From: Pseudomonadota bacterium
GTDB lineage: Bacteria; Pseudomonadota; Gammaproteobacteria; Burkholderiales; Burkholderiaceae_C
Assembly: GCA_031119395.1 (NCBI GenBank)
Contig: JAVHYA010000041.1
Span: 1 to 45,502 of the forward strand
Reading direction: 5' to 3'
DNA: 45,502 nucleotides
This document shows, piece after piece, positions 2,056 through 43,003 of this stretch. A program made the translations under genes and the position numbers. The notes beneath the pieces were generated by a model. The model did not search any database. It worked only from the letters and a program-made list of their open reading frames with translations, and was not told where the DNA came from. Within the stretch, counting starts at the first letter, position 1. Each line of letters starts with the position of its first letter.

Positions 2056-2850
2056 TCAGGCGCCGCCGGACAGCTGGCGCGCCGCGCTCGCATGCAGGCA
2101 GATGGCGGCGGCCGCCGCCACGTTCAGCGACTCCTCGCCACCCGGCTGGGCGATGCGGATATGCAGGGCCGCCCGCGCCTCCAGCGCCGGCGACACGCCC
2201 TGCCCTTCGTGGCCCAGCAGCCAGGCGCAGGGCATGGGCAGCCGAGCCTCGTGCAGCCACTCGCCGCGGTGCGAACTGGTGGCGATCCAGGGCATCCGCA
2301 GGGCATCGAGCGCCTCGGGCTCCACGCCTTCGACCAACTGCAGGCCGAAATGCGCGCCCATGCCCGCGCGCAGCACCTTGGGCGACCACAGCGCAGCCGT
2401 GCCCTTGAGCGCCACCACCTGGCCGAAGCCGAAGGCGGCCGCACTGCGCAGGATGGAGCCCACGTTCCCCGGATCCTGCAGCCGGTCGAGCAGGACCGTC
2501 GGCACAGTGGGCGACAGCGCCGGAGGCGGCGGCAGGTCGACCACGAAACCCATCGGCGCCGGCGATTCGAGGCCGCTGCCGGCGGCCAGCAGCGCATCGT
2601 CGACCACTACGGTTTTGATAGCACCCTGCGCCCATTCCACGGGCGCCCGAGGCCAAAATGACTCCGAAAACACGGCCACGGACGGGCGCAGGCCTCGCGC
2701 CAGCGCGGCCCGGCACAGGTGGTCGCCCTCGAGCCACACACGCCCCAGCTTGCGGTAGGCCCCGGGATCCTGGGCGAGCTTGCGCAGCTCCTTGAGCAGC
2801 GGGTTGTCGCGCGACTGGATGCGCATCGGCTCGGAAGGGCTCACGGGCAT
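2056..2850 (-). CDS. SpoU/TrmH-family RNA 2'-O-methyltransferase
   Basis: A SPOUT-class methyltransferase that would transfer a methyl group from SAM to a ribose 2'-OH of rRNA or tRNA. The N-terminal substrate-binding domain holds SRDNPLLKELRKL and LEGDHLC. The C-terminal knot domain has the three family motifs: QDPGNVGSILR (125-131), LLGHEGQGVS (211-220) and SLNVAAAAAI (241-250). The target (RlmB-, TsnR- or TrmH-like) cannot be told from sequence. An ATG at 2826 is an alternative start. It follows rnhB by 7 nt, as the last gene of the long minus-strand run. A copy of the dispersed palindrome is translated as residues 77-82 (AIKTVV), in the linker between the two domains. Confidence 0.88.
   Translation of the reverse strand: MPVSPSEPMRIQSRDNPLLKELRKLAQDPGAYRKLGRVWLEGDHLCRAALARGLRPSVAVFSESFWPRAPVEWAQGAIKTVVVDDALLAAGSGLESPAPMGFVVDLPPPPALSPTVPTVLLDRLQDPGNVGSILRSAAAFGFGQVVALKGTAALWSPKVLRAGMGAHFGLQLVEGVEPEALDALRMPWIATSSHRGEWLHEARLPMPCAWLLGHEGQGVSPALEARAALHIRIAQPGGEESLNVAAAAAICLHASAARQLSGGA
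2606..2664 (+). repeat. Dispersed palindromic repeat, copy 1 (inside the methyltransferase gene)
   Basis: The core at 2606-2622 (ACTAC-N7-ATAGC) is a slightly degenerate form of GCTAT-N7-ATAGC. The tail holds CTGCGCCC...GGGCGCCC and ends in CCAAAATGACTC, matching the tails of the other copies. It lies antisense to the host gene and keeps the frame open. Confidence 0.75.
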
Positions 2851-3553: not shown

Positions 3554-4679
3554 CGGCGCACAGTGTCGGCGTATCGCGCTGCAGTTGCACGTGCATGGCG
3601 GTGAATTTCCGCTCCGCCTCCTGCACCCGGGCCGGCTCCTGCAGCCAGGCCAGCGTGGCCTCGGCCAGCGCCTCGGGCGTGGCCGCGTCCTGCAGAAGTT
3701 CAGGCACCACGAACTCCCCGCACAGGATGTTGGGCAACCCGACCCACGGCTGCAACTGCTGGCGGTGCATCAGGTGCCAGGAGACGCGGTTCATGTTGTA
3801 GGCGATGACCATCGGCCGCTTGAACAGCGCCGCCTCCAGCGTCGCCGTGCCGCTGGCGATCAGCGTCGCGTCGCAGGCCGCCAGCACGGCGTGGGAGCGG
3901 CCATCGACCAGCTTGACCTTGCCGGCCATCGGGCTGGCGGCCAGCAGCTGCTCGGCCTCCGCGCGCAGGCTGGGGATCACCGGCGCTATGAATTCGATAG
4001 CAGGCTGCGCCCGCTGCATGAGCGCTGCAGCCGAAAAGAACCTTGAGGCCAGGTAGCGCAATTCGGAGCGCCGGCTGCCGGGCAGCAGCGCCACCACCGG
4101 CGCCTCGGCCGACAGCCCCAGCGCCCGCCTCGCCCCGGCCCGGTCCGGCTGCATGGGAATGACGTTGGCCAGCGGGTGGCCGACGTAGCTCGCAGCCACG
4201 CCCTGCTCCGCCAGCAGCGCCGGCTCGAAGGGGAAGATGCACAGCACGTGGTCGGCTGCGGCGCGGATCTTCTCGATGCGGTCCGCGCGCCAGGCCCAGA
4301 TCGAGGGGCAGACGAAGTGCACGGTCTTGATGCCGCGTCCGCGCAGCGCCGCCTCGAGGTCGAGGTTGAAGTCGGGCGCATCGACGCCGATGAAGAGTTC
4401 GGGCCATTCGCGCAGCAGACGCGCCTTGAGCTGGCGGCGGATGGCGGCGATCTCGGCGTAGTGGCGCAGCACCTCGATGTAGCCGCGAACGGCCAGCTTT
4501 TCTTGCGGCCACCAGCTCTCGAAGCCGCGCGCGAGCATCTGCGGCCCGCCGATGCCGACCGTCTTCACGTGTGGAAAGCGGCGCTGCAGGCCGTCCAGCA
4601 ACAGGCCCGCGAGCAGGTCGCCCGAAGGCTCGCCGGCCACCAGGGCGAACTGGCGCGCCTGTTCGCTCTCGCCCGTCAT
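3525..4679 (-). CDS. lpxB: Lipid-A-disaccharide synthase
   Basis: A GT-B glycosyltransferase at the inner membrane face that joins UDP-2,3-diacylglucosamine and lipid X to form lipid A disaccharide. Motifs include GEPSGD (16-21), GVDAPDFNL, the CPSIWAWR region and [10 protein letters not shown]. The ATG at 4679 is preferred because GGAG sits 8 nt upstream; a GTG at 4688 is the alternative. The product is 384 aa, normal for LpxB. Residues 227-232 (AIEFIA) and the stretch just N-terminal to them come from a dispersed palindromic repeat, inserted in frame shortly after the LPGSRRSEL segment. Upstream lies lpxA (73 nt gap), downstream the overlapping rnhB. Confidence 0.96.
3985..4045 (+). repeat. 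Dispersed palindromic repeat, copy 2 (inside lpxB)
   Basis: Core 3985-4001 is GCTAT-GAATTCG-ATAGC, followed by a GC-rich tail with CTGCGCCC and GCGCTGCAGCC and then CGAAAAGAACC. It is antisense to lpxB and read through as AIEFIA on the coding strand. Confidence 0.85.
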
Positions 4680-11516: not shown

Positions 11517-12713
11517 TCAGGCCGCCAGCCGGATCGCCGCGGCGTTGGCGGCCGCGCGTGCGCTGGCGTCGAGCGCCAGCAGGTCCGCCAGCGATCCGGG
11601 ATTGGACGGCGCCACCGCCTCCAAAGTTTCCAGGTTCACGGCATGGATGCGATCGAAACGCAGGCGCCGCTCGAGGAAGGCGGCGACCGCAACCTCGTTG
11701 GCCGCATTCAGGACCGCGGTGGTGCCCGGTGGCGCGCGCAGGGTCTGCCAAGCCAGGTCGAGGCCGGGAAAACGCCCGGCGTCCGGGACCTCGAAGCTCA
11801 GCGCGCCCAGCGTGCGGAAGTCCAGGCGGGCGGTGCCGCTCTCGACCCGTGCAGGCCAGGCCAGCCCGCAGGCAATGGGCACCCGCATGTCGGGCGTGCC
11901 CAGCTGCGCCAGCACGGAGCCGTCGACGAACTGCACCATCGAATGGATCACGCTCTGCGGATGGATGACCACCTCGATCTGGTCCGGTGCCACGCCGAAC
12001 AGGTGACGGGCCTCGATCACCTCCAGCGCCTTGTTCATCATGGTCGCCGAGTCCACCGAGATCTTGCGGCCCATGACCCAGTTGGGGTGGGCACAGGCCT
12101 GCTCGGGCGTGACGGCCGCCAGCGTGTGTGCCTCACGCTCGCGGAACGGGCCACCGGAAGCGGTCAGGATGATCTTGTCGATGCGCTCGGGCCAAACCAC
12201 CGGGTCCTCGGGCAGGCACTGGAAGATCGCCGAATGCTCGCTGTCGATCGGCAGCAGCGTGGCGCCGCCGCGGCGCACGGCGTCCATGAACAGCTCGCCG
12301 CCGACCACCAGCGCCTCCTTGTTGGCCAGCAGCAGGCGCTTGCCGGTGCGCGCCGCGGCCAGGCAGGGCGCCAGGCCCGCCGCGCCGACGATGGCGGCCA
12401 TGACGATGTCGACGTCCTCGTCGGATGCTATGGTTTCAATAGCGTCTGACGCAATGATGACGCGGGTTTCAAGCCCATTTTGCTTGAGCTTTTCCGCCAG
12501 GAGCGCGGCGTGGCGTTCGCTCGCCATGGCCGCGAAACGCGGCTTGAACCGCGCGCACTGTGCGAGCAGTTCATCCACCTTGGTGGCGGCCGACAGTGCG
12601 AAGACCTCGAAGCGCTCAGGATGCCGGGCGATCACGTCGAGGGTGCTGACACCCACCGAGCCGGTGGAGCCCAGCACGGTGACGCGTTGGCGGGGAGCGG
12701 AAAGGTTCTTCAC
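11517..12713 (-). CDS. dxr: 1-deoxy-D-xylulose 5-phosphate reductoisomerase
   Basis: Second step of the MEP isoprenoid pathway: converts DXP to MEP with NADPH and a divalent metal. NADPH-binding [12 protein letters not shown] lies near the N-terminus; the metal/substrate residues include the acidic site in [27 protein letters not shown] and the [12 protein letters not shown] segment follow. The GTG start at 12713 forms a GTGA overlap with the cdsA stop and gives a normal 398 aa. Residues 91-96 (AIETIA) are the translated palindrome of a dispersed repeat, in the NADPH-binding domain just before [15 protein letters not shown]. The next MEP genes, ispD and ispF, are 24 kb away in this window. 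Confidence 0.96.
12427..12490 (+). repeat. Dispersed palindromic repeat, copy 3 (inside dxr)
   Basis: Core 12427-12443 is GCTAT-GGTTTCA-ATAGC. The tail has diverged in its GC-rich part (GACGC...GCGGG) but ends in the family's CCCATTTTGCTTGAGC. It is antisense to dxr and read as AIETIA on the coding strand, with the tail giving [16 protein letters not shown]. Confidence 0.8.
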
Positions 12714-17843: not shown

Positions 17844-19187
17844 ATGACCGAACCCGCCGCACTCCCCGATCTCGTCGCCACCCGCGAAGCCCTGCAGGCC
17901 GGCCGCACCGACGCCCGCACCGAGCTGGAGCGCGCCATCGCGACGGCCCAGGCGCCCGCCAACGCCCACAGCTTCGTGCGCACCGACTTCGAAGCCGCAC
18001 GTGCCGCCGCTGCGGCCGCGCACCCCGGCCAGCCGCTGGCCGGCCTGGCGGTGTCGGTCAAGGACCTGTTCGACATCGCCGGGCAGCCCACGCCGGCCGG
18101 CTCGGTGGTGCTGGCCCACTCGCCCGCTGCCGCCGCCCATGCACCTGCCGTCGCGCGCCTGCTGGCAGCCGGCGGCGCGCTGATCGGCCGCACCAACATG
18201 ACCGAATTCGCCTTCTCCGGCGTCGGCGTGAACCCGCACCACGGCACGCCGGCGAACGTGGCCGATGCCCGGACCCCGCGGGTGCCGGGCGGCTCGTCGT
18301 CGGGCGCGGCGATCTCGGTGGCGACCGGCGCGGCCTTCATCGGCCTGGGCTCGGACACCGGTGGATCGATCCGCATCCCGGCCGCCCTGAACGGCATCGT
18401 GGGCTTCAAGAACACCGCTCGCCTGGTGCCCACCACCGGCGCCGTGCCGCTGTCGACCACGCTCGACACCGCCTGCGCCATGACGCGCTCGGTGCGCGAC
18501 GCCATCGTCGCCCACGAAATCCTGGCCGAGCGCCGCGTCACGCCCGACGCCACCCCGCTCGCACAGCGCCGTCTCGCCGTGGTGAAGGACCTCTTCCTCG
18601 ACGGCCTCGACGCCACGGTGGCTGCCGCCTTCGAGCGCACGCTGCGCCGGCTGCGCGCGACCGGCGCAGCGATCGACGAGATCGCCCTGCCCCCGCTGGC
18701 CGACCTGCCGGCGATCAACGCCACGGGGGGCTTCTCGGCGGCCGAGGCCTACGCCTGGCACCGCCTGCTGCTGGAGCGCAGCGCGGCCGGCTACGACCCG
18801 CGCGTGGCGCAGCGCATCCTCAAGGGCGCGGCGATGAAGGCCTACGAGTACATCGACCTGGTCCACGCGCGCGCCGCGTGGATCGGCCGCATGGCGTCGG
18901 CGCTGGCACCCTACGACGCCATCCTCTCGCCCACCGTGCCCATCGTCGCGCCGCCCCTGGCCGATGTCGCGCCGGGCGAGCCGCGCGATGCCGAATTCTT
19001 CCGGGTCAATGCGCTGCTGCTTCGCAACCCCTCGGTCGTCAACATGCTCGACGGCTGTGCGATCTCCATCCCATGCCATGCGCCGGGCGAACTGCCGGTG
19101 GGCCTGATGCTGTGGCACGGCGCGCTGCACGACGACGCCGTGCTCGCCATCGCGGCCCAGGCCGAAGAGGCGCTACGAATTCGATAG
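17844..19187 (+). CDS. Amidase-signature-family hydrolase
   Basis: A Ser-cisSer-Lys amidase. Catalytic Lys73 is in SVKDLFD; the signature region has [15 protein letters not shown] and the nucleophile serine in [14 protein letters not shown]. The C-terminal part [20 protein letters not shown] is seen in GatA-like and other amidases. No gatB or gatC is adjacent, so it is more likely a catabolic amidase than part of the Glu-tRNA amidotransferase; substrate unknown. The ATG at 17844 is preferred over an upstream GTG at 17763. Its last codons (CTA CGA ATT CGA TAG) lie inside a dispersed palindromic repeat, so the stop codon is supplied by the repeat. Confidence 0.9.
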
Positions 19188-19238
19188 CTGCCTGCGCAGG
19201 CGGGTCGTGGCCTGCAGCCCGATCCGCCTCGAATTCCG
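19172..19238 (+). repeat. Dispersed palindromic repeat, copy 4 (amidase 3' end)
   Basis: Core 19172-19188 is GCTAC-GAATTCG-ATAGC. The tail TGCCTGCGCAGGCGGG...CTGCAGCCCGAT closely matches the tail of copy 9 at 42958. Bases 19185-19187 form the amidase TAG stop. The remaining intergenic stretch to 19409 holds a 16-nt perfect palindrome at 19247-19262 and otherwise nothing I can assign. Confidence 0.8.
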
Positions 19239-20710: not shown

Positions 20711-22177
20711 ATGCAGCGCATCCACCCCGACCGCATCCCGGCCCCGCTGCCGCTGTTCGGCACGCAGGCCACGCGGCGCCTCGAACAGGCGGCCGCAGCC
20801 GCCCTGCCCCCGCACACGCTGATGCAGCGCGCGGGGCTGGCGGTGGCACGTCTGGCGATGGCCGTCGCGCCGCACGCGCGCTCGGTGTGGGTCGCCTGCG
20901 GCCCCGGCAACAACGGCGGCGACGGCTTCGAGGCGGCCATGCACCTGCAGCAGCGCGGCTACGCACCCACCGTGACCTGGATCGGCGACCCGGCGCGCCT
21001 GCCGCCCGACGCACAGGCGTCGCTGCACCGTGCGCAGGCGGCCGGCGTCGCGATCGCCGACGAGCCGCCGGCAGCCCCCGACCTCGTCATCGACGCCCTG
21101 CTCGGCCTGGGCAGCACGCGCGCCCCCGAAGGCCGCATGGCGCAGTGGCTGCAGCGCATGCACGGGGGCACGGCACCGGTGCTGGCGGTCGACTTGCCGT
21201 CGGGCCTGGATGCCGACACGGGCCGCCACGCTATGAATTTCATAGCATCCGGCGCCCGTCCCGCGGGCGCTGCAGCCCGTTTTTGCTTGAGCCTGCTGAG
21301 CCTGAAGCCGGGCCTGTTCACCGCCGAGGGCCGCGACTGGGCCGGCGAGGTGTGGTCGGACGACCTGGGTTGCGCGCCGCTGCCGGGGATCGAGGCCGAT
21401 GCCGAGCTGGCCGCCGCACGGGTCGATGCACCCCGCGCCCATGCGTCGCACAAGGGCAGCTACGGCGATGTCGCCGTGCTCGGCGGGGCGCCGGGCATGG
21501 CGGGCGCCGCCGTGCTGGCCGCGACCGCCGCCTTGCACGCCGGCGCGGGCCGGGTCTTCGCCGGGCTGCTGGGCGCCGAGGTGCCGTGGGACGGCGCGCA
21601 GCCCGAGCTCATGTTCCGCGACGCCGCCATGTTGCCGCTGCCTGCCCAGACGCTGGTCTGCGGTTGCGGCGGCGGCGAGGCTGTGCGCGCCGTGCTTTCG
21701 CGCGCGCTGGCGCACGCCGGGCCGCTGGTGCTGGACGCGGATGCCCTCAATGTGCTGGCCGGCGACGAGAACCTGCAGGCCTTGCTGGCGACACGGCAGG
21801 CCGCCACGGTGATGACGCCGCATCCGCTCGAAGCCGCGCGCCTGCTGGGCGTCGACACGCGCAGCGTGCAGGCCGACCGCCTGGCCGCGGCGCGGACGCT
21901 GGCCGACCGGCACCGCTGCACGGTGGTGCTCAAGGGCTCGGGCAGCGTCGTCGCCCACCCGGGCGCACGGCCGTCGATCAATCCGACAGGCAACGCGCGG
22001 CTGGCCACCGCGGGCACGGGCGATGTGCTGGCCGGCATGGTGGGTGCTGCCCTCGCCGCCGGCCACCCGCCCCGCGAGGCCGCGGTTGCCGCCGTGTGGC
22101 GGCACGGCGCCCTGGCCGATCGCTGGCCGGCCGACCGGCCGCTGACGGCATCCGCCCTGGCGCGCGGCGGCCTCTGA
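20711..22177 (+). CDS. nnr: Bifunctional NAD(P)HX epimerase / ADP-dependent dehydratase
   Basis: Repairs hydrated NADH and NADPH: the N-terminal domain (1 to about 215) epimerises NAD(P)HX and the C-terminal domain (about 235-488) dehydrates S-NAD(P)HX using ADP. N-domain motif GPGNNGGDGFEAA and VDLPSGLDADTG; C-domain motifs TPHPLEAARLLG, VLKGSGSVVAHP and NATGTGDVLAGM-like TAGTGDVLAGM. The 488-aa length fits the fused family. Residues 174-179 (AMNFIA) and the following run to ARFCLSLL are translated from a dispersed repeat placed between DADTG and the conserved SLLSLKPGLFT strand. It lies 44 nt after the oxidoreductase. Confidence 0.93.
   Translation: MQRIHPDRIPAPLPLFGTQATRRLEQAAAAALPPHTLMQRAGLAVARLAMAVAPHARSVWVACGPGNNGGDGFEAAMHLQQRGYAPTVTWIGDPARLPPDAQASLHRAQAAGVAIADEPPAAPDLVIDALLGLGSTRAPEGRMAQWLQRMHGGTAPVLAVDLPSGLDADTGRHAMNFIASGARPAGAAARFCLSLLSLKPGLFTAEGRDWAGEVWSDDLGCAPLPGIEADAELAAARVDAPRAHASHKGSYGDVAVLGGAPGMAGAAVLAATAALHAGAGRVFAGLLGAEVPWDGAQPELMFRDAAMLPLPAQTLVCGCGGGEAVRAVLSRALAHAGPLVLDADALNVLAGDENLQALLATRQAATVMTPHPLEAARLLGVDTRSVQADRLAAARTLADRHRCTVVLKGSGSVVAHPGARPSINPTGNARLATAGTGDVLAGMVGAALAAGHPPREAAVAAVWRHGALADRWPADRPLTASALARGGL
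21230..21293 (+). repeat. Dispersed palindromic repeat, copy 5 (inside nnr), near-complete
   Basis: Core 21230-21246 is GCTAT-GAATTTC-ATAGC. Tail hairpin GCGCCCG-TCCCG-CGGGCGC at 21252-21270 is followed by TGCAGCCCG, T5 and GCTTGAGC. This is the clearest full-length copy and lies in the sense direction of the host gene. Confidence 0.88.
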
Positions 22178-22180
22178 AGG

Positions 22181-22202
22181 AAAAACGGGCCCGAAGGCCC
22201 GT
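22181..22202 (-). terminator. Rho-independent terminator of the SDR gene
   Basis: Minus strand ACGGGCC-TTCG-GGCCCGT followed by TTTTT. The 7-bp stem has a stable UUCG loop. It lies between the convergent nnr and SDR genes and has the T-run only on the minus strand, so it ends SDR (and perhaps rnr) transcription. Confidence 0.85.
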
Positions 22203-22218
22203 CCTGCTTGCGCAAACC

Positions 22219-22260
22219 GCTATCGAAAAGATAGCGCTTGCGCGGCAGCTTGCGCGCTCA
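22219..22260 (+). repeat. Dispersed palindromic repeat, copy 6 (nnr/SDR convergent junction)
   Basis: Core 22219-22235 is GCTAT-CGAAAAG-ATAGC, flanked by an extra C/G pair. The tail GCTTGCGCGGCAGCTTGCGCGCTCAGCC is shorter and runs into the SDR 3' end. Confidence 0.75.
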
Positions 22261-32552: not shown

Positions 32553-33266
32553 CTACTTGAGCTGCACCGATCCCGAGACGTTGACCACCACCGTGGTCTT
32601 GCCGGCCTCGACCGGGATCGGCGCATCGGCGGCCGAGAAGGACTTCGCCTCCGCCGCCATCATGCGCGGGCGGATCGGGCCGCCCTCGTTCGCATTGACC
32701 GACACCTCGCGCAGGGTGTAGCTGCCGAAGCCGAAGTCCTTGGCCAGTTCGGCCGCCTTGCGCTTGAAGTTCTCGATGGCCTGGGTCTGCGCCTCGCCCT
32801 CGGACTTGAGCCGCTGCTCGCGGCTGAGCGCGAAGCCCACGTTGCCCACGCTCAGCGTCGTGATGCGGCCTGCCGCGCGCGTGATGCGCGGGAAATCACG
32901 CCCCTCCAGCACCAGCTCGGCGCTGCCCTGCCAGCCATTGATCTTGCCGTCGCGCGTGTAGCGGGGCGACAGGCTGAAGTTGCCGGTGCGCACGTCCATC
33001 TGGCCGGGCTGCGCGTCCTTCTTGGCCTCGGCGAGCGCGGCGTCGATGGCGGTGCGCAGTTGGTTCTGCACCGTCGCGGCATCGGTGGCGTCGCGCGTGG
33101 TGACCAGCGTCATGTTGAGCAGATCCTGCTGCACCTCGACCGTGCCGTTGGCGGACAACTGGAGCACGTTCTGCGGCTGCGCGGGCCCGCTGTTCTGCGC
33201 AAAAACGGCGCTAGCGCCCGCCAGTGCTGCGCAAGCAGCTATCAATTTAATAGCATTCAAAACCAT
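32553..33266 (-). CDS. SIMPL-domain (DUF541, YggE-like) periplasmic protein
   Basis: 237 aa with a signal peptide (residues 1-23, likely cut after VFA) and one SIMPL domain spanning the rest (LSANGTVEVQQDLLNMTL, SLSPRYTRDGKINGW, VSVNANEGGPI). The family is periplasmic or membrane-linked; the E. coli member lowers oxidative stress, but the mechanism is not known. Codons 5-22 of the signal peptide are a dispersed repeat in sense orientation: palindrome GCT ATT AAA TTG ATA GCT gives AIKLIA, and the GC-rich tail gives ACAALAGASAVF. The Cys at 12 is preceded by IAA, but the hydrophobic run before it is too short for a convincing lipobox. Confidence 0.88.
   Translation of the reverse strand: MVLNAIKLIAACAALAGASAVFAQNSGPAQPQNVLQLSANGTVEVQQDLLNMTLVTTRDATDAATVQNQLRTAIDAALAEAKKDAQPGQMDVRTGNFSLSPRYTRDGKINGWQGSAELVLEGRDFPRITRAAGRITTLSVGNVGFALSREQRLKSEGEAQTQAIENFKRKAAELAKDFGFGSYTLREVSVNANEGGPIRPRMMAAEAKSFSAADAPIPVEAGKTTVVVNVSGSVQLK
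33192..33254 (-). repeat. Dispersed palindromic repeat, copy 7 (forms a signal peptide)
   Basis: Minus-strand core GCTAT-TAAATTG-ATAGC (33254-33238), then TGCTTGCGC, GCGGGCGCTAGCGCC and GTTTTTGC. Order and spacing match copy 5 in nnr. It lies wholly within the first 25 codons of the SIMPL gene. Confidence 0.85.
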
Positions 33267-36115: not shown

Positions 36116-36120
36116 TCTCG

Positions 36121-36180
36121 GGCACCGAATCGGCCCGCAGCGCCCGCGGGACGGGCGCAAGCAGCTATCGATTCGATAGC
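36121..36180 (-). repeat. Dispersed palindromic repeat, copy 8 (envZ/ispF convergent junction)
   Basis: Minus-strand core GCTAT-CGAATCG-ATAGC (36180-36164), then TGCTT and a hairpin at 36158-36140 identical over 19 nt to the hairpin of copy 5, then TGCGGGCCGATT. It fills most of the 76-nt gap between the two stop codons and may act as a bidirectional terminator. Confidence 0.85.
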
Positions 36181-42941: not shown

Positions 42942-43003
42942 GCTATCGTTTTCGTAGCTGCTCGCGCAGGCGGGGCGGGCGCTGCAGCCCGATCTGGCTC
43001 AAA
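42942..43003 (+). repeat. Dispersed palindromic repeat, copy 9 (serB/DUF6172-like convergent junction)
   Basis: Core 42942-42958 is GCTAT-CGTTTTC-GTAGC, followed by TGCTCGCGCAGGCGGG, GCGCTGCAGCCCGAT and GGCTCAAA. The tail includes the stop codon (42999-43001) of the minus-strand gene. Confidence 0.85.

Follow-up and report, generated by a model that had tools for sequence, protein, structure and literature searches.

The window, that is, the whole 45,502-nt stretch of DNA that was analyzed, carries a SIMPL-domain (DUF541/PF04402) gene on the minus strand at positions 32553..33266, which was assigned from its ORF, its Pfam match (PF04402, E = 3.5e-35), and the starts of near relatives. The nearest relatives of the protein were those of a proteobacterial MAG (99%) and Xenophilus aerolatus (97%). 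At gathering scores, Rfam matched two tRNAs only in the window. The translation of the ORF (33266-32553, minus strand) begins with MVLNAIKLIAACAALAGASAVFAQNS, its N-terminus is MVLNAIKLIAACAALAGASAVFAQ, and the codons from the fifth onward are GCT ATT AAA TTG ATA GCT GCT TGC GCA GCA CTG GCG GGC GCT AGC GCC GTT TTT GC. A GGGAG motif lies 3 nt upstream of the listed ATG (33266) and 9 nt upstream of a TTG at 33260-33258. Of the near relatives, those examined at the start of the gene (L017, L018, L019, and L097) have the TTG and no ATG at the listed place. The true start is probably the TTG, which is codon 3 in the window, and not the listed ATG; with the TTG start, the repeat described below accounts for nearly all of the SIMPL signal peptide. 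The SIMPL protein and the other cases reported here fit the layout of a Sec signal peptide, with a basic residue in a short N-terminus, a hydrophobic core, an A-x-A-type site, and a mature domain, where signal peptides were called by a home-made sequence rule.

The predicted h-region and c-region of the SIMPL signal peptide (AIKLIAACAALAGASAVFAQ) are encoded by a repeat copy at 33193..33254 on the minus strand, identified by its profile score and a recoding null. The copy includes a palindromic core, GCTAT-N7-ATAGC (33238..33254, no strand), whose frame 0 gives A-I-x-x-I-A from both strands, and a hairpin region with GCGC-N11-GCGC blocks (33214..33232, minus strand), which shows the family spacing (repeat offsets +22 and +37). 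We scanned two genomes, a sister genome (G071, hereafter X) and an Acidovorax-like genome (G085, hereafter A), over 1.2 Mb each, using main profiles built from 52 (X) and 51 (A) copies. The copies of both samples have one layout of fixed length (~65 nt), which consists of a GCTAY-N7-RTAGC palindrome, a 5-nt spacer, the GCGC-N11-GCGC hairpin region, and an A/T-richer tail. The hairpin region is preceded by RTAG, with ATAG as the consensus and G in the minority. The 17-nt core was found 268 times in the 5.14-Mb source genome, compared with once for the reversed pattern. Scores above 12 bits were obtained at 140 places in X and at 167 in A (overlaps removed), and the reversed profile, applied to both strands of the two 1.2-Mb samples, never exceeded 8 bits. 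SIMPL was absent from the training set of the main profiles, whereas the copies of the genes called UgpB (X) and MltB (A) below were part of it, so the scores of these two genes under the main profiles are somewhat raised; both copies were taken out for the six-profile, host-type, tree, and codon analyses.

The repeat lies mostly between genes: 93 of the 140 places in X and 130 of the 167 in A were classed as intergenic, a class that includes signal-peptide copies whose gene was called from a downstream start. Convergent gaps contained 25 of the 97 (X) and 41 of the 123 (A) copies that scored 25 bits or more and lay between called genes, whereas they made up 70 of 603 and 104 of 672, respectively, of all gaps of at least 60 nt. 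About a quarter of the places (39/140 in X and 33/167 in A) were within called genes, which were unrelated to one another and in which the frame was open; the open frame follows from the gene caller itself, and the coding signal extends well past the repeat. The palindrome was in frame 0 (the classes "same f0" and "anti f1" taken together) in 26 of the 39 and 20 of the 33 internal coding copies (together 46/72), a preference that perhaps reflects selection against stops. Many A-type copies, as well as many copies of the type found in a further genome (G031), have a stop in frame 0 (GCT TGA; TAG). The gene caller was seeded with amino-acid frequencies, and an earlier caller that chose antisense shadow frames was discarded.

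Nine repeat copies were found in the window, the SIMPL copy included. The highest score was 78.5 bits at 42942..43003 (plus strand). The copy at 21230..21291 (plus strand, 67.3 bits) has frame 0 open within the coding stretch AVDLPSGLDADTGRH-AMNFIASGARPAGAAARFCL-SLLSLKPG of a gene that, we presume, resembles an NAD(P)H-hydrate enzyme, and the sister genome has the same arrangement. Further copies were located at 36119..36180 (minus strand, 66.4 bits), 22174..22235 (minus strand, 57.0 bits), 19172..19233 (plus strand, 53.5 bits), and 2606..2667 (plus strand, 43.4 bits). A repeat-like stretch at 12427..12488 (plus strand, 50.9 bits) and a copy at 3985..4046 (plus strand, 43.4 bits) are antisense to reading frames that we take to be DXR-like and LpxB-like, respectively, and both presumably fit into these frames with no obvious insertion.

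The SIMPL copy scored 60.2 bits against a profile of 52 sister-genome copies from which SIMPL was excluded (profile information, 56 bits), and the match extends from the palindrome core down to 33193 with no gaps and with both GCGC blocks correctly spaced. Synonymous recoding of the same peptide (2 x 20,000) gave means of 13.6 and 14.6 bits (sd 6.1 and 6.4) and a maximum of 39.7 bits among all 40,000 recodings, which places the observed copy at z = 7.6 and 7.1; half of the recodings used the usage of the first 30 codons, taken from called starts that are often downstream of the true start. These results indicate that a hydrophobic peptide alone does not account for the nucleotide match, and they confirm that the minus-strand segment 33193-33254 is a full member of the dispersed repeat family. 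The initial annotation had proposed that the signal-peptide codons match the repeat family and had allowed that the match might be no better than chance for such a peptide; the proposal was borne out by the score, the empty reversed control, and the recoding maximum. Its suggestion that the composition of the repeat merely happens to give a signal peptide was not supported, because the nucleotide match far exceeds what the peptide requires.

We collected 130 SIMPL loci (the best 80 of 201 relatives, 30 best matches, and 20 hand-picked loci), which are best-matching loci and not a random draw, include a few genomes twice, and come from genomes that are not independent samples. Scores of at least 10 bits under the X or A profile were obtained for 61 of these 130 loci, and in 61 of 61 the palindrome was in frame 0 at the same place before mature SIMPL. 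A midpoint-rooted tree was built from the mature SIMPL domain, with the signal region excluded, for the 123 rows that were left after removal of 7 duplicates from the 130. Under six genome profiles and in frame 0 only, 50 of the 123 rows scored above 25 bits, 60 below 12 bits, and 13 in between. The positives were found in three large clades (Acidovorax-like, Polaromonas/Rhodoferax-like, and Xenophilus/Variovorax), and 0 of the 6 rows of the outgroup clade across the midpoint root were positive. Since it spans three clades, the recruitment at SIMPL looks old and not like a recent insertion. The presence of the repeat required a minimum of 14 changes on this tree, which has many weak forks, so a single old gain with losses and several gains are indistinguishable; we read the pattern as an early origin with many decays, with several gains possible.

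The median z against recoding was 5.4 in the 50 SIMPL positives and 1.4 in the 60 negatives. For the positives, signal-peptide codons had a GC3 of 0.39, compared with 0.86 for the mature part, and 46 of 50 signal peptides contained ATA, a codon that was seen 4 times among 10,435 mature codons. The left palindrome arm was often broken in Acidovorax SIMPL (ACTAC for GCTAT). As a separate observation, several Acidovorax loci (e.g., L087 and L093, minus-strand position 2946) have a second copy in reverse orientation just 3' of the SIMPL gene. In regards to Variovorax, most sampled members have a similar SIMPL peptide in GC-rich codons without a repeat match; the sole Variovorax with counted repeats, G122, has 22 cores. 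Because these Variovorax are nested in repeat-bearing lineages, we infer that their SIMPL signal peptides are decayed repeat DNA whose peptide has been retained. The initial annotation had asked which orthologues carry the repeat and had named the same residues without nucleotide similarity in distant orthologues as evidence against recruitment. Among the sampled orthologues, those of Acidovorax-, Polaromonas/Rhodoferax-, and Xenophilus-like lineages have the repeat at the same codons, and those of the six-row outgroup and of most Variovorax do not. The situation named as contrary evidence is literally the case in most sampled Variovorax, which lie inside the repeat-bearing lineages.

A gene-blind scan of N-termini in X and A returned SIMPL (both samples), an SBP_bac_8 solute-binding protein, an SLT_2 lytic transglycosylase, and GspD. 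We take the SBP_bac_8 protein to be UgpB-like and the SLT_2 lytic transglycosylase to be MltB-like. These five cases, SIMPL counting twice, were retained from 15 in-frame N-terminal candidates; the other ten, which were frames open through an upstream repeat or internal copies in short-called genes, were dropped by eye. A rule-based scan placed eight copies at signal-peptide-like N-termini, namely SIMPL (two), UgpB, MltB, and four antisense cases in what are presumably BamB-, PpiA-, TupA-, and DUF2147-like genes. With GspD, which the rule missed, the two 1.2-Mb samples contain eight different secreted-type genes with a repeat signal peptide, i.e., seven beyond SIMPL. A stricter first rule (ATG starts) gave 0 (X) and 1 (A) copies in the same orientation and 1 and 2 antisense copies, respectively; it missed SIMPL and UgpB and was relaxed, and GspD was missed under the relaxed rule too.

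The palindrome was in frame 0 (Ala-Ile-x-x-Ile-Ala from either strand) in 8 of 8 signal-peptide copies. At the rate of the internal copies, this result has a probability of about 0.03, which is modest evidence; since internal coding copies also favor frame 0, the frame says little about export, and a P of 7e-6 for the frame of the signal-peptide copies is overstated. Placement is more informative than frame in this respect: the 8 signal-peptide copies among 80 coding copies compare with 0.89 expected from the share of coding length (P = 3e-6) and with 2.87 expected from uniform placement over all DNA in any frame (P = 0.009), two of the eight being SIMPL, the gene that prompted the search. The initial annotation had allowed that such recruitment might be general, and the eight secreted-type genes in the two samples support its extension beyond SIMPL. 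The further idea of the annotation, the seeding of new secreted proteins, is not supported so far, because the recognizable cases are established kinds of exported protein.

Among the best-matching loci, 20 of 30 MltB-like and 24 of 30 GspD loci scored above 10 bits under the six profiles, all in frame 0. In regards to the UgpB-like protein, 16 of 30 loci were about 30% identical and were excluded from the orthologues; of the remaining 14, four (G000, G071, G146, and G121) have the repeat core and ten have an ordinary core. A start of the form M-x-x-x-x-F-L was present in all 4 repeat-bearing orthologues and in 4 of the 10 others, and the orthologues of the repeat-rich genomes G010 and G136 have an ordinary core. 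The UgpB-like orthologues show the plainest case of a predicted exchange of the core with the shared start kept. These cases support the initial proposal of a repeat that acts as the core of a predicted export signal and has taken the place of an earlier core in some genes.

We compared repeat-rich genomes (at least 20 cores) with repeat-poor genomes for the loci that had a repeat count (SIMPL, 37/50; MltB, 29/30; GspD, 29/30). In repeat-rich genomes, a signal above 20 bits was present in 21 of 25 SIMPL, 18 of 23 MltB, and 17 of 20 GspD rows, and was lacking in 4/25, 5/23, and 3/20, respectively. In repeat-poor genomes, the corresponding values were 0/12, 0/6, and 1/9, i.e., 1 of 27 rows overall. 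Weaker remnants were found in G147, in which the repeat is rare (SIMPL, 17.5 bits; GspD, 18.6 bits).

The repeat family has genome-specific forms. The profile of the source genome was chosen for left-out genomic copies in 47 of 51 (X), 47 of 50 (A), and 19 of 20 (G031) cases, and in 10 of 20 (G004), 4 of 7 (G125), and 0 of 8 (G003) cases; the G125 and G003 profiles comprised 7 and 8 copies after exclusion of copies of at most 13 bits (2/9 in G125 and 2/10 in G003). When the signal peptides were scored with the six genome profiles, the best fit was to the profile of the same genome for 12 of 17 and, with the A-like genomes A, G004, and G003 pooled, to the same type for 16 of 17; the sole exception was the MltB signal peptide of G004, which is closer to the X type. 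Two of the genomes, G000 and G071, belong to one genus. The form of the family in G031 is roughly ATAGCTATTTAGGCAATAAATACGCCGGCTA, with GCGC blocks that are mostly AGGC and GCCG-like. The SIMPL and MltB signal peptides of G031 have this form, scoring 61.4 and 64.5 bits under their own profile and at most 31.5 and 30.7 bits, respectively, under any other, and they have CAG where many copies show the stop TAG. The recruited signal-peptide copies in general are without the stops that are present in many other copies.

The membership of these sequences in the family, their frame, their occurrence in several genes and widely on the SIMPL tree, and their match to the host type were observed directly. 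In our judgment, these observations are quite likely explained by an old and recurrent recruitment of a REP-like repeat as the core and cleavage region of signal peptides, kept in step with the family. Frame 0 of the Comamonadaceae repeat would encode a Sec-type core and cleavage region, roughly A-I-x-(L/F)-I-A-A-(C/S)-A-L-x-x-x-A-x-(A/F)-A-Q. Because frame 0 encodes both a hydrophobic core and an ending of the A-x-A type, a copy that landed in, or was copied into, the start of an exported-protein gene could serve as a signal-peptide core. Early in Comamonadaceae, one copy would have displaced the SIMPL signal peptide's hydrophobic core, and further copies would have done likewise in unrelated exported proteins, in either orientation and in the palindrome frame. 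To judge from their sequences, the recruited copies may have been retained by selection because they function as export signals. Where the repeat family is abundant, the coding copies would hold the local nucleotide form; where it is scarce, they would drift to ordinary GC-rich codons with the peptide retained. The repeat-coded peptide is predicted to be cleaved and to export its protein, homogenization by gene conversion or re-replacement would lie behind the host-type match, and mobility of the repeat would presumably underlie its spread.

A variant compatible with this explanation is repeated independent replacement, in which the same set of genes receives, in each lineage, the repeat that is current there. 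It would account for the own-type match of the signal-peptide copies and for the presence and absence of the repeat in UgpB-like genes, including its absence in the repeat-rich G010 and G136, but the shared frame and place in the 61 SIMPL positives and the remnants in G147 argue against it, and we give it somewhat less than an even chance. It is rather unlikely that the repeat is kept as a DNA element for a nucleic-acid role, i.e., as a protein-binding palindrome or as a 5' mRNA hairpin that tunes translation, with the peptide merely tolerating it. Such a role would be consistent with the nucleotide identity at synonymous sites, which holds across genera, with the tendency of copies to follow the local repeat type, and with the frame preference of the internal coding copies, by which the frame is no proof of a peptide role; however, Acidovorax SIMPL genes often have a disrupted left arm of the palindrome, the DNA match is lacking in most of the Variovorax sampled although their peptide is similar, and signal peptides are denser in copies than other coding DNA. 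The wide distribution of the SIMPL copy on the tree would also suit an origin of the dispersed repeat as an amplified fragment of a gene in which the signal peptide came first, but the intergenic majority of copies, the frame-0 stops in many A-type and G031-type copies, and the eight unrelated signal peptides make this origin highly improbable. Convergence, whereby an Ala/Leu/Ile-rich signal peptide in the A/T-rich rare codons of gene starts resembles the repeat by itself, could supply about 14 bits with a wide spread, but it was rejected, together with codon bias, by the recoding tests and has scarcely any likelihood given the empty reversed profile, the exact spacing, the mostly matched genome-specific form, and the near absence of repeat-like signal peptides from repeat-poor genomes.

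The recruitment that we favor can be compared with known systems. Rickettsia palindromic elements (RPE) are, according to the available portion of one report, palindromic repeats of 105-146 bp that occur in frame in unrelated protein genes and between genes, and the insert that was tested is called neutral or slightly detrimental there (PMC2229807). The present family likewise has in-frame copies in unrelated genes and intergenic copies, but, as far as that portion describes RPE, it differs in that the repeat is about 65 nt and its copies form the predicted export signal itself. The same portion describes MITEs as small dispersed palindromic elements able to fuse into reading frames (PMC2229807), and the Comamonadaceae repeat is similarly small, dispersed, palindromic, and present in reading frames. 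In the partial accounts available, the enterobacterial RU-2/YPAL and RU-1f repeats occur in exported-protein genes (YPO1552 and YE2643), where RU-2 forms residues 1-30 of a 41-residue signal peptide at few Yersinia loci. By comparison with these accounts, the Comamonadaceae repeat forms the core and cleavage region in several conserved unrelated proteins and has an orthologue series and a host-type match. GTAG/CGTC REP elements, which are RAYT-associated, are described in the available text of another report as short palindromes in high number that lie chiefly in gaps between convergent genes or genes of the same direction and in some cases within genes, and its authors state there that many N-terminal REPs may be misannotation (PMC3733652). 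None of the six Comamonadaceae genus names that we looked for occurs in that text (PMC3733652). The Comamonadaceae repeat resembles REPs as a high-copy short palindrome that is mostly extragenic and enriched between convergent genes. In the one genome whose neighborhood was examined (G085), no repeat lay within 4 kb of the Y1 transposase; one match to Y1_Tnp was present in 9 of 10 genomes, repeat-poor genomes included. Among the titles and abstract openings listed by our searches of open papers, we found no description of this repeat or of repeat-derived signal peptides in Comamonadaceae, nor of a recurrent signal-peptide core formed by one repeat in conserved exported proteins of many genera with a match to the host type.

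Palindromic repeats within genes have been known mainly as tolerated inserts, with few partial signal-peptide cases in Yersinia. In many Comamonadaceae genera, the functional portion of several predicted export signals of conserved proteins comes from a single repeat family. It thus seems that a mostly non-coding repeat has been turned to a second use as a preformed export tag. More tentatively, and with the balance of our judgment leaning against it, the genomic repeats and the signal-peptide copies may be homogenized together, so that unrelated proteins within each genome would have their export signals shifted together to the local type. The signal-peptide codon statistics of these genomes should be used with caution, as they are partly the statistics of the repeat. 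As a tangible and testable example of a repeat that became a protein module for repeated use, the family is also suited to studies of gene conversion where selection acts on the protein.
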